Shown: piece after piece, positions 35,201 to 44,200 of the stretch
Position numbering within the stretch: the first letter of the stretch is position 1
Layout: each line of letters opens with the position of its first letter
From: Argopecten irradians
Taxonomy: Eukaryota > Mollusca > Bivalvia > Pectinida > Pectinidae
Direction: 5' to 3'
Assembly (NCBI RefSeq): GCF_041381155.1
Contig: NC_091137.1
Coordinates: forward strand, 21,497,655-21,561,654
Length of the DNA: 64,000 nucleotides
Notes under the pieces: model-generated
The model's input: the letters and a program-made list of their open reading frames with translations, nothing else
Told to the model about the DNA's origin: nothing
Databases searched by the model: none
Program-made: the position numbers and the translations under genes

Positions 35201-38200
35201 TTATTGCAAACATAGTTATTGCAAATTTCCCATATTCACATGATACCATTTCCTCTTCACACAATCAACAGCAGACTAACAAGTTCATCATTAACACCAT
35301 TCCAGGAATCTTGCAAAGCTTCCCTCTTTACTCATATCATCTAGCAACAAGTTTGATGTACTAACCGTCAGTTTGATAGCTTTCTCCGGGCAGACACCAA
35401 CCAGTTGAGGTCCCAGACCACGGTAAAGTCCCAAGACTCCCTCATGTCGAATAACTTTCTTAAAACAGTCAAAGCTGTTCTTGTACATGAGTTCTCCTAC
35501 CATCGAGCCAGTACGTTGGTTTTGTATACGAGTCTTCACAAGATCAATTGGGTAGACAGCCGTCGCTCCAGTGGCTGAAAATTAAACACACCAATAACAT
35601 AAACAAATTAAACATCTAACATAGAATGTGTAATGGAATTAGACCCCAGTGTAAATTTGTACACTACACCTACCTCCAGCTTCAGACCCCAGCGTAAATC
35701 TGTACACTACACCTACCTCCAGCTATATACCCCAGTGTAAACCTGTACACTACACCCACCTCCAGCTATAGACCCAAGTATAAATCTGTACACTACACCT
35801 ACCTCCAGCTTCAGACCCCAGTATAAATCTGTACACTACACCTACCTCCAGCTTCAGACCCCAGTGTAAATTTGTACACTAAACCTACATCCAGCTATAG
35901 ACCCCAAAGTAAATCTGTACACTACACCTACCTCCAGCTATAGACCCCAGTGTAAATCTGTACACTACACCTACCTCCAGCTATAGACCCCAGAGTAAAT
36001 CTACACTAAACCTACCTCCAGCTATAGACCCCAGAGTAAATCTGTACACTACACCTACCTCCAGCTATATACCCCAGTGTAAATCTGTACACTACACCTA
36101 CCTCCAGCTATAGACCCCAGAGTAAATCTGTACACTACACCTACCTCCAGCTATTTACCCCAGTGTAAATCTGTACACTACACCTACCTCCAGCTATATA
36201 CCCCAGTGTAAATCTGTACACTACACCTACCTCCAGCTATAGACCCCAGTGTAAATCTGTACACTACACCCACCTCCAGCTATAGACCCCAGTGTAAATC
36301 TGTACACTACACCTACCTCCAGCTATAGACCCCAGTGTAAATCTGTACACTAAACCTACCTCCAGCTTCAGACCCCAAAGTAAAGCTGTACACTACACCT
36401 ACCTCCAGCTTCAGACCCCAAAGTAAATCTGTACACTACACCTACCTCCAGCTATATACCCCAGTGTAAATCTGTACACTAAACCTAACTCCAGCTATAG
36501 ACCCCAGTGTAAATCTGTACACTACACCTACCTCCAGCTATATACCCCAGTGTAAATCTGTACACTACACCTACCTCCAGCTATAGACCCCAGAGTAAAC
36601 TGTACACTAAACCTACCTCCAGCTTCAGACCCCAAAGTAAATCTGTACACTAAACCTACCTCCAGCTTCAGACCCCAGTGTAAATCTGTACACTACACCT
36701 ACCTCCAGCTATATAACCCAGTATAAATCTGTACACTACACCTACCTCCAGCTATAGACCCCAGTGTAAATCTGTACACTACACCTACCTCCAGCTATAG
36801 ACCCCAGTGTAAATCTGTACACTACACCTACCTCCAGCTATAGACCCCAGTGTAAATCTGTACACTACACCTACCTCCAGCTTCAGACCCCAGTGTAAAT
36901 CTGTACACTACACCTACCTCCAGCTTCAGACCCCAGTGTAAATCTGTACACTACACCTACCTCCAGCTTCAGACCCCAGAGTAAATCTGTACACTACACC
37001 TACCTCCAGCTATATACCCCAGTGTAAATCTGTACACTACACCCACCTCCAGCTATAGACCCCAGTATAAATCTGTACACTAAACCTACCTCCAGCTTCA
37101 GACCCCAAAGTAAAGCTGTACACTACACCTACCTCCAGCTTCAGACCCCAAAGTAAATCTGTACACTACACCTACCTCCAGCTATATACCCCAGTGTAAA
37201 TCTGTACACTAAACCTAACTCCAGCTATAGACCCCAGTGTAAATCTGTACACTACACCCACCTCCAGCTATATACCCCAGTGTAAATTTGTACACTACAC
37301 CCACCTCCAGCTATAGACCCCAGTGTAAATCTGTACACTACACCAACCTCCAGCTATATACCCCAATGTAAATTTGTACACTACACCCACCTCCAGCTAT
37401 AGACCCCAGAGTAAATCTGTACACTACACCCACCTCCAGCTATAGACCCCAGTATCAATCTGTACACTAAACCTACCTCCAGCTTCAGACCCCAAAGTAA
37501 ATCTGTACACTACACCTACCTCCAGCTTCAGACCCCAAAGTAAATCTGTACACTACACCTACCTCCAGCTATATACCCCAGTGTAAATCTGTACACTAAA
37601 CCTACCTCCAGCTTCAGACCCCAAAGTAAATCTGTACACTACACCTACCTCCAGCTTCAGACCCCAGTGTAAATCTGCACACTACACCTACCTCCAGCTT
37701 CAGACCCCAGTGTAAATCTGTACACTACACCTACCTCCAGCTTCAGACCCCAGAGTAAATCTGTACACTACACCTACCTCCAGCTTCAGACCCCAGAGTA
37801 AATCTGTACACTACACCTACCTCCAGCTTCAGACCCCAGTATAAATCTGTACACTACACCTACCTCCAGCTTCAGACCCCAGTGTAAATCTGTACACTAC
37901 ACCTACCTCCAGCTTCAGACCCCAAAGTAAATCTGTACACTACACCTACCTCCAGCTTCAGACCCCAGAGTAAATCTGTACACTACACCTACCTCCAGCT
38001 TCAGACCCCAGAGTAAATCTGTACAATACACCTACCTCCAGCTTCAGACCCCAAAGTAAAAATGTACACTACACCTACCTCCAGCTTCAGACCCCAAAGT
38101 AAATCTGTACACTACACCTACCTCCAGCTTCAGACCCCAGAGTAAATCTGTACACTACACCTACCTCCAGCTATAGACCCCAGAGTAAATCTGTACACTA

Positions 38201-41200: not shown

Positions 41201-44200
41201 GTACACTACACCCACCTCCAGCTATATACCCCAGTGTAAATTTGTACACTACACCCACCTCCAGCTATAGACCCCAGAGTAAATCTGTACACTACACCTA
41301 CCTCCAGCTATAGACCCCAGAGTAAATCTGTACACTACACCCACCTCCAGCTATAGACCCCAGTATAAATCTGTACACTAAACCTACCTCCAGCTTCAGA
41401 CCCCAAAGTAAAGCTGTACACTACACCTACCTCCAGCTTCAGACCCCAAAGTAAATCTGTACACTACACCTACCTCCAGCTATATACCCCAGTGTAAATC
41501 TGTACACTACACCCACCTCCAGCTATAGACCCCAGTGTAAATCTGTACACTACACCCACCTCCAGCTATATACCCCAGTGTAAATTTGTACACTACACCC
41601 ACCTCCAGCTATAGACCCCAGAGTAAATCTGTACACTACACCTACCTCCAGCTATAGACCCCAGAGTAAATCTGTACACTACACCCACCTCCAGCTATAG
41701 ACCCCAGTATAAATCTGTACACTAACCTACCTACCTCCAGCTTCAGACCCCAAAGTAAATCTGTACACTACACCTACCTCCAGCTTCAGACCCCAGCGTA
41801 AATCTGTACACTACACCTACCTCCAGCTTCAGACCCCAGAGTAAATCTGTACACTACACCTACCTCCAGATTCAGACCCCAAAGTAAATCTGTACACTAC
41901 ACCTACCTCCAGCTTCAGACCCCAGAGTAAATCTGTACACTACACCTACCTCCAGCTTCAGACCCCAGAGTAAATCTGTACAATACACCTACCTCCAGCT
42001 TCAGACCCCAAAGTAAATCTGTACACTACACCTACCTCCAGCTTCAGACCACAAAGTAAATCTGTACACTAAACCTACCTCCAGCTTCAGACCCCAGAGT
42101 AAATCTGTACACTAAACCTACCTCCAGCTATATACCCCAGTGTAAATCTGTACACTAAACCTACCTCCAGCTACAGACCCCAGTGTAAATCTGTACACTA
42201 CACCTACCCCAAGCTATAGACCCCAGTGTAAACTGTACACTTAACATACCTCCAGCAACAGACCCCAATGCAAATCTGTACACACTCTCAAGAACTCCTA
42301 GTAAACTTGATCGTTCCTTCCCTTGCTCCAAATTTATTTTTTCCTGGAAGAGTTGAATGCAGTCACTACATCACTGGACATTTAAGTATCATAAGCTTCT
42401 CCAACTATATAACATTCCTAGATGGTGTAGGATTGCTTTTGATCAATCAAATTCAGAAATAGATTTGATGAGATTTTTATGCAATGTTAAATTCACACCA
42501 AAGATATTTCACTTTTTTTTGTATATGCAAATGAATTTGGCAAAAGGCAAAGTAAAGCCTATATGAGCCATCTCTAAACGATATGATACCACACATACTC
42601 TGACAAATACCATACAAATTACAGTTGTATGTCTGGTATAGACAATGAGGATTTAGGCTTTCCATACAAACTACTGATTACAAAATGATTAAACAATACC
42701 TGTGCAATAGCCATCTGAATTGTAAATGGAGTTTCTCGTCCCTTCATTGGTGAAATTTGGTGAAGATCTTCATATGACAACCTCCTGTTGGAGAATATAT
42801 CAGAATATTGATGGTACACAGGTACATGTTTGGTAAAAATGTCAATAGCTATAAAGTCACTAATACGTCAGGTGTATTCACAAATAACTAAACCCATCAT
42901 AAAATTTTTCCCATCCTCTTCAATTATTCACCTCCAATTCTATAACCCAATTGTGTTTATTGTACATTTATTATATACCTCAATGGTGTGTAGACTATAC
43001 ATCAATTCTATACCCTCAATAATGTTTACACTGTACACTTTATACCCCAATGTTAACTGCTGTCCACTTTACCCTCTCTGATGCTTCAGTCCGACCAAAT
43101 GAAAAAGAATATCCAGTTCAAGCGGTGTGATCTGAGAATATTCCTGGGCCTGGTAAAGCATTTCCTCTGAAATCAAAATGAGTTTTATCACACAACTAGC
43201 CAGTACAGCCATGTCATAAATATCGATGGACACATGTAATAACACTATTGTGACATCACAGGTAGTTTTGACATCATAATCTATATATGAAGTAACATGA
43301 TTGTCTCAGAAGACAGAAATGTCACATCTGAGCCGTATTTCTACTGTTTTATAGAGACAAAATCTTAAGTTTTACTTATATTTCTATTATTAAAAGTTAT
43401 GCGATAAATAGAATCTTACATTCATGACTATGTGATATGATTTATCAAAATCATTACATAATCTGATATGCCACTCACCTTAAGGCTTGTGCCAAATCGA
43501 ATTATTGAGCTCGTTTGATAAATTTCATATCACATAGCCACTTATGTAAGCTCATCTATTTATATTACTTCTATCTAAATTGTCCCTTTAATTTATATAG
43601 ATTACGATAGTGCTTTCCTTATGTGGCCTGTGATTGTTTATGTGTGTTGGCCTCAAAGGCCTTTGGATACTTGGGTATCAACAGGCGGAAATCAAGACAC
43701 CTTCGCTATACTGACACGAAAAAGGGTATCTCATAATATAGCATTTTCTGATGTTAAATGATTTTATCACATAACTATGCAGGTTTCACTTTGTAAAGAT
43801 CCTGTGATAAACTCCATAGCAGTTGATAATTGTTTAAAGCCAATTTATTTGAATTAAGAATACAAATAATGGAGGCCTAACCAAATATTCCAGAGATTTA
43901 TTTCTGACTGACCTTTAGTGACCTCTTTACTGGTATCACGTCGTGTAGCAGACATGTAAATCTTCTTGACAAGTTCCATATTGTTCAGCAGTGAGATGAA
44001 GGCCATGAAGAAGGAGTAGCTCACTTGTCTATGTTTCTCCCCACCAACTGTTACCTAGCAACACATAAACATATAAATGTGAGTATATATAGGACTATTT
44101 ATAAAATCAAATTTTTACAATTTGTATCACAGCATATGCTTCCAGCAGGAAAATCTGTCTATTCTTAGACAGAATCAAAATTCATCTGGTAAGATTACTT

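Follow-up and report, generated by a model that had tools for sequence, protein, structure and literature searches.

Intron 10 of an aspartate/glutamate carrier gene in the scallop Argopecten irradians consists almost entirely of tandem copies of the end of the preceding coding exon together with its 5′ splice site (donor). The gene lies on the minus strand of a 64,000-nucleotide stretch (RefSeq assembly GCF_041381155.1, contig NC_091137.1, positions 21,497,655–21,561,654; hereafter the window), within which all positions given below are numbered. The array (35641–42249, minus strand) comprises 154 units of 43 bp, each made of 9 nt of donor and 34 nt of exon end, in 47 unit types, and fills 6,609 of the 6,675 bp of the intron (99%). 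It belongs to a known class of repeats, the mirage minisatellites, of which it is a large case, and we consider it probable that the gene tolerates it, most likely as a passenger rather than as a selected device.

The Array and Its Parent Exon

Tandem Repeats Finder reports a 43-bp unit in 154.6 copies at 35640–42283 with 93% matches, and wraparound alignment on the gene strand counts 154 units running from the exon donor at 42249 to 35641, the final unit being partial. The initial annotation of this stretch had proposed about 150 tandem copies in intron 10, which the count bears out. It had placed them at 35641–42343, which holds at the 35641 end; at the other end the units start at the donor at 42249, positions 42250–42283 are the parent sequence, and 42284–42343 are exon outside the repeat. 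The sole non-repeat part of intron 10 is a 66-nt segment carrying the 3′ splice site TTTAATTTTCAG (35575–35640, minus strand).

The repeat derives from the terminal 34 nt of exon 10 (GTGTACAGATTTGCATTGGGGTCTGTTGCTGGAG, 42250–42283, minus strand), which agree with the unit in 30 of 34 bases, in line with the proposal that the unit is the 3′ end of this exon plus its donor with about four differences. The alignment is gap-free over the 34 nt and terminates at the splice junction. Its local score of 48 compares with a maximum of 23 among 1,000 shuffles of the exon, a comparison that the initial annotation had itself put forward as a check on the derivation, and with scores of 10–18 for 14 other exons. 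Because the peptide encoded by the end of exon 10 is kept across the animals in our alignment, the exon is the parent of the repeat. The units thus straddle an exon-intron boundary of a protein-coding gene, with 34 nt of exon and 9 nt of intron, and the genuine boundary persists beside the array with an intact frame (exon 42343–42250, donor GTATGT), as in mirages.

Units differ from their consensus by 5.9% on average (gaps and the partial unit included) and from one another by 8.3% (partial unit excluded). Besides the partial unit, indels occur in six units (0, 12, 26, 30, 131, and 145, numbered from the exon). Where a mirage would have a concertedly evolving interior and edge units left out of it, blocks are shared in the interior of this array; the edge unit 0 differs from the consensus at 6 positions against an interior mean of 2.5, but three interior units also reach 6, and units 1 and 2 differ at 1 and 2 positions.

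The Host Gene

The product of the joined minus-strand exons is an aspartate/glutamate carrier of the SLC25A12/13 (aralar/citrin) type, with an EF-hand domain, carrier repeats, and orthologous sequence. Its best protein relative, from Mizuhopecten yessoensis (Pectinidae), is 94% identical to it; identity is 72–77% to 16 other named molluscs in the alignment and 57% to mammalian SLC25A13, and the solved domains of Aralar2 and Aralar1 are matched with E values of 8.1e-83 and 1e-75, respectively. The gene as located (32262–53949, minus strand) has 17 coding exons, two of which were placed by tblastn alone (53949–53878 and 47378–47328, minus strand), with the remaining 15 between 46927 and 32262 (minus strand). 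Translation of these 15 joined exons runs without a stop through to the end. A first exon for the extreme N terminus of the carrier (MAATR-like) was not located in the window. The names exon 10, exon 11, and intron 10 follow the numbering of the initial annotation, the array-parent exon being exon 10 or 11 in absolute terms.

Exon 10 (94 nt, 42250–42343, minus strand) is bounded by the acceptor CTTCCAG and the donor GAG/GTATGT (the slash marks the exon-intron junction), and exon 11 (209 nt, 35366–35574, minus strand) has a translation that begins with (A). At 6,675 bp, intron 10 far exceeds 13 other introns measured in the gene (231–1,101 bp). Two further upstream introns, which tblastn alone places, measure about 6.5 and 0.4 kb, so the length of intron 10 is not by itself unique in this gene.

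Predicted Strength and Context of the Decoy Donors

Among the 154 donor sites, the real one included, GAG/GTAGGT occurs 119 times, GAG/GTGGGT 25 times, GAG/TTAGGT four times, and GAT/GTAGGT twice; four further types occur once each, among them the real GAG/GTATGT. Most units therefore keep the GGAG/GTAGGT noted at the outset, and GT is present in 148 of the 153 copies behind the real donor, which we refer to as decoys. The real 5′ splice site (GTATGTTAA on the intron side, 42241–42249, minus strand) has a predicted duplex energy with the 5′ end of U1 of −6.9 kcal/mol, compared with −12.3 kcal/mol for the commonest decoy, and 146 of the 153 decoys are predicted to pair more strongly than it does. 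By the same measure the decoy consensus exceeds 13 of 14 real carrier donors tested, one real donor being stronger (−13.3 kcal/mol). G-U pairs probably contribute part of this advantage.

A donor position matrix of general base frequencies gives a smaller difference, with 5.30 for the decoy consensus and 5.03 for the real donor. By this matrix the real donor ranks fourth among the 14 carrier donors tested, the decoy consensus exceeds 11 of the 14, and 119 of the 153 decoys score above the real site. The size of the decoy advantage thus differs between the two measures. The suggestion that the decoys lie nearer to the donor consensus than does the real site stands for most of them on either measure, although the margin by matrix is small and the first decoy (junction GGG/GTAGGTGT, 42207–42208, minus strand), at −11.9 kcal/mol, scores lower than the real donor by matrix (3.09).

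Sites scoring at least as high as the decoy consensus number 119 in the 6,609 bp of the array (18 per kb), whereas the other introns have a single one in 6,047 bp and the remainder of the window has 0.13 per kb on each strand. This density is high because one seed has been copied. At the nine donor positions the units carry 5 distinct alleles (6.7 expected, P = 0.32) and 33 variant copies (77 expected, P = 0.21; permutation, unit 0 excluded), so that variation is not reduced at the donor relative to other positions of the unit. These values lend no support to selection on the decoys, whose quality derives from the copying of a good seed and not from visible selection.

The AGs of the consensus unit are preceded by 5–9 pyrimidines in 17 positions, compared with 10–14 in 13 of 14 real acceptors of the gene tested and 7 in the fourteenth. 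RNA folding of the boundary region gives a z score of −1.36. The polyadenylation hexamers AATAAA and ATTAAA are absent from both strands of the array, which has no bearing on protection from premature polyadenylation.

Predicted Consequences for the Message

Retention of intron 10 would bring a stop after 29 codons, in keeping with the stop within about 30 codons foreseen for read-through. Skipping either exon 11 (209 nt) or exon 10 (94 nt) would break the frame. Use of the first decoy, in contrast, would add 42 nt, or 14 residues, in frame and without a stop, and the predicted product would have 671 instead of 657 residues (each count includes ten initial residues read from intron). The frame is kept at the first decoy because the unit between it and the real donor (unit 0, 42208–42249) is one base short, an outcome with a one-in-three likelihood by chance alone. 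Use of decoy 2 would shift the frame and reach a stop; decoys 3–7 would all stop at residue 360, as would the four examined farther along the array (units 50, 100, 152, and 153). The expectation that any downstream donor yields a null transcript accordingly fails for the nearest decoy. The 14 added residues would lie in what we take to be the first transmembrane helix of the carrier, so the +42-nt form is probably not a working carrier. A search for an annotated insertion isoform with the 46-residue region returned no match at E 1e-3, but as the known relative was not recovered either, this result carries no information.

No Support for an Older Exon or for Gene Conversion

The initial annotation had proposed that the peptide encoded by the unit fits the carrier family better than does that of the exon, and that the array might preserve an older exon sequence or its form be favored by gene conversion. 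We compared family residues in the best 120 of 4,013 hits, a biased sample, of which 117 have the motif (three rows without it were dropped). At the site where the exon has Ala and the unit Thr, these 117 have Ala 45, Gly 29, Thr 24, Ser 10, Val 4, Phe 3, Ile 1, and Leu 1; at the site where the exon has Val and the unit Ile, they have Ile 60, Val 33, Leu 19, Phe 3, and Met 2. The unit is hence closer to the family at the second site, Ile being commoner than Val, but not at the first, where Thr is a minority residue and is found in one of the 17 named molluscs aligned (the residues being Gly 7, Ala 3, Ser 3, Phe 2, Ile 1, and Thr 1). The nearest scallop, M. yessoensis, has Gly there.

Variant copies in the array number 104, 128, and 81 at codon positions 1, 2, and 3, with 7, 8, and 10 distinct alleles. 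Variants are as free at positions 1 and 2 as at position 3, which argues that the units are not evolving as coding sequence, and on this pattern together with the family residues the reading of the array as a preserved older exon was rejected as unsupported. Conversion between exon and array has likewise left no sign: the exon base is found in 0 of 154 units at the Ala/Thr site and in 0 of 153 at the third base of the Val/Ile codon. Of the four sites where exon and unit differ, the remaining two have the exon base in 32 and 65 units. The claim that conversion favors the array form is not supported by these counts.

Growth of the Array

Sixteen runs of at least three identical consecutive units recur in the array, the longest of six units, compared with a maximum of four in 200 shuffles. 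Identity by unit type has its peaks between units spaced 54, 113, and 55 apart, and nucleotide identity is about equally high at offsets 1 and 54 (0.934, against a mean of 0.917). Units 41–51 and 95–105 are 99.4% alike, units 55–66 and 110–121 are 95.5% alike, and the longest exact repeat in the array is 292 bp. Such shared but diverged blocks, with exact repeats of at most 292 bp, point to local slippage and kilobase-scale exchange followed by mutation, and not to a simple duplication in the assembly. Special targeting of the founding event is unnecessary, since a random 43-bp seed in the located gene span has a chance of about 3% of touching one of its 16 donors. A hairpin (AGTGTA/TACACT) was considered as a driver of expansion and rejected, the DNA fold of two units being average (z = −0.04). 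The array unit had no exact matches in viral and bacterial/archaeal contigs, collections not built to hold animals. Tandem repeats are reported as the largest repeat class (21.7%) in one scallop genome (PMC10225492), which makes large arrays a common background there.

Other Tandem Arrays in the Window

Seven arrays in the window were tested, and the splice-donor array alone has an outside copy in a carrier exon (other genes of the window are unannotated). For the arrays beginning at 1584, 12880, and 59005, outside copies lie at each array's own edge. The last of these (59005–64000) has a 58-bp unit in about 87 copies and reaches the window edge, its sole good outside copy being a degenerate one at the array edge. 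The array at 12880–16448 has nested periods of 51, 98, and 378 bp (TTACGGTAGTTACATAACG...) and is a higher-order repeat, and that at 1584–2335 (59/119 bp) lies directly upstream of a minus-strand 185-residue open reading frame (973–1530) with no Pfam match. Two adjoining arrays at 21682–23798, with units of 161/324 bp and 144/289 bp, are possibly pieces of a dispersed repeat. Two arrays about 1.2 kb apart (27145–27636 and 28788–29055) share a near-identical unit of 32–34 bp (CAGTGTGGTATACATATACCCTGCATGGTGTA).

Discussion

From what is directly observed, namely the anatomy of the array, its derivation from the exon, the open frame of the joined exons, and the predicted strength of the decoys, we infer an order of events, a splicing outcome, and an effect on fitness. 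The founding tandem duplication would have run from GTGTACAG inside exon 10 to a point 9 nt past the exon-intron junction. Additional copies would land behind the first donor and would leave the coding exon and its own donor intact, so that the change would be tolerated. The array would then have expanded by slippage and unequal exchange, including that of blocks of about 54 units (2.3 kb). Every unit would be transcribed as a strong-looking orphan 5′ splice site without an acceptor bearing a pyrimidine tract. The real donor, being at the right distance from the exon 10 acceptor (exon definition), would still mainly be used, though the first decoys may take a share and efficiency may drop somewhat; an effect of the array on splicing is in this sense possible.

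Some points weigh against a tolerated passenger. Resemblance to the exon shows no smooth decay with distance: mismatches are fewest in unit 1 (3), all 152 other units compared have at least 4, and unit 0, which adjoins the exon, has 7, among the highest of the full units. Modeled unpaired probability gives the real donor (0.015) no clear accessibility edge over 19 decoys (0.0018–0.028). The ABCA7 array discussed below lowers expression with length, so "tolerated passenger" may understate the effect.

A length-dependent splicing handicap resembling that of ABCA7 is possible, if on balance doubtful. Decoys would compete with the real donor or stall intron 10, longer alleles would give less carrier mRNA and more exon 11 skipping or retention, and the array would be a mutational burden, not an adaptation. 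This reading draws on the 146 of 153 decoys that outpair the real donor, on a consensus whose duplex energy tops 13 of 14 carrier donors and whose matrix score tops 11 of them, and on the frame breaks or early stop expected from skipping the 209-nt or 94-nt exon or from retention (29 codons). It also draws on the human gene itself, where the intron 18 variable number tandem repeat (VNTR) holds the exon 18 donor and is reported with one-unit retention, exon 19 skipping that rises with its length, and expression that falls with it (PMC5954066). However, array length is reported to leave the one-unit retention unchanged, and further factors are weighed by the authors (PMC5954066); amphioxus mirages are reported without disturbance of splicing (PMC3087553); and by matrix the real donor is fourth of 14 and close to the decoys, the first of which is weaker. 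That the array acts as a dial whose length sets carrier expression, in which some 150 donors, most of them predicted to outpair the real one, hold U1 in the intron and thereby limit correct splicing, the nearest decoy gives the +14-residue form as a partial repeat of transmembrane helix 1, and an array length that differs between individuals sets mitochondrial aspartate/glutamate exchange, we regard as improbable.

An adaptive copy-number rheostat or U1 decoy, in which selection keeps the donors and array length tunes carrier output, appears very unlikely. It would fit the GT in 148 of 153 decoys and the 119 consensus-level sites in 6,609 bp against one in 6,047 bp of other introns, but that density is the product of copying one seed, and the donor positions are as variable as random unit positions (P = 0.32 for alleles, 0.21 for copies). 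U1 is present at about a million copies per nucleus, which makes global titration by one gene implausible as a form of the U1 titration suggested in the initial annotation. Adaptive tuning by the array is unsupported. We give barely more than passing credence to an assembly artefact, with copy number inflated or the array misplaced: long arrays are difficult to assemble, and one amphioxus mirage was apparently misassembled in a draft genome according to its authors (PMC3087553), but the 47 unit types, the diverged blocks, the limit of 292 bp on exact repeats, and the clean joins to conserved exons at both array ends speak for a genuine array. Recursive splicing, with each unit joint as a ratchet point and intron 10 removed stepwise, is hardly to be expected. 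Ratchet sites have the form AG/GT, as do the unit joints GGAG/GTAGGT. However, the unit AG has 8 pyrimidines in 17 positions (10–14 in 13 of 14 real acceptors) and is preceded by G, a position held by C or T in all 14 of the real acceptors, and recursive splicing was rejected for want of a pyrimidine tract before AG/GT.

A tolerated mirage-type minisatellite accords with the closest known system. Mirages are described as minisatellite-like tandem repeats over exon-intron boundaries in the amphioxus genes Adh3, BflGb6, and BflGb9 (the last two encoding globins), with splice signals in many units, allelic and somatic instability, and reverse transcription PCR that suggests no interference with regular splicing; BflGb9 contains a duplicate of a 3′ exon boundary (PMC3087553). 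The scallop array shares with them boundary-spanning units with splice signals and a genuine boundary that is kept, the interior of the amphioxus repeats being reported as homogenized; in contrast to the BflGb6 haplotypes of 6 and 3 units, it has 154 copies, makes up 99% of its intron, and lies in a carrier gene of a mollusc (PMC3087553). Like the human ABCA7 VNTR, whose unit starts with GT, whose alleles reach kilobases, and for which one-unit retention via the next donor has been seen, it begins at and contains the real donor, repeating it in the 148 GT-bearing decoys (PMC5954066). Unlike the 25-bp intronic unit of ABCA7, the scallop unit includes 34 nt of coding exon, and most of its decoys are predicted by duplex energy to be stronger than the real site (PMC5954066).

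As in intron gain by tandem duplication (the Rogers model, with 24-bp exonic repeats in fission yeast and the potato RdRp gene as cases), a segment with splice-site sequence has been duplicated within a gene, but here the duplication multiplies the donor side of an existing intron and shows no new one (PMC4974935). Variable repeats at exon-intron boundaries of human paralogs have also been proposed as a possible source of new introns (PMC2812944). Competition by cryptic donors is described as context dependent, and, as with the decoy exons and splice sites implicated in intron retention, surplus sites close to an authentic site can compete with it; effects have been measured for those decoys, whereas the scallop decoys are known only as sequence (PMC8706089). 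A mollusc case was named in no title found by our literature search, which does not prove its absence.

With this array, mirage repeats, which the literature consulted describes for amphioxus, are seen in a bivalve mollusc as well, and at a length where intron and array practically coincide. For the choice of a 5′ splice site the locus amounts to a natural experiment: one real donor faces 148 GT-bearing copies in a nearly identical 34-nt exon-end context, most of them predicted by duplex energy to pair better with U1, and a single acceptor follows them all. Should the real donor still be the one in use, neither U1 pairing nor the local context of the exon could be decisive, which would leave the distance to the upstream acceptor (exon definition) or the order of synthesis.

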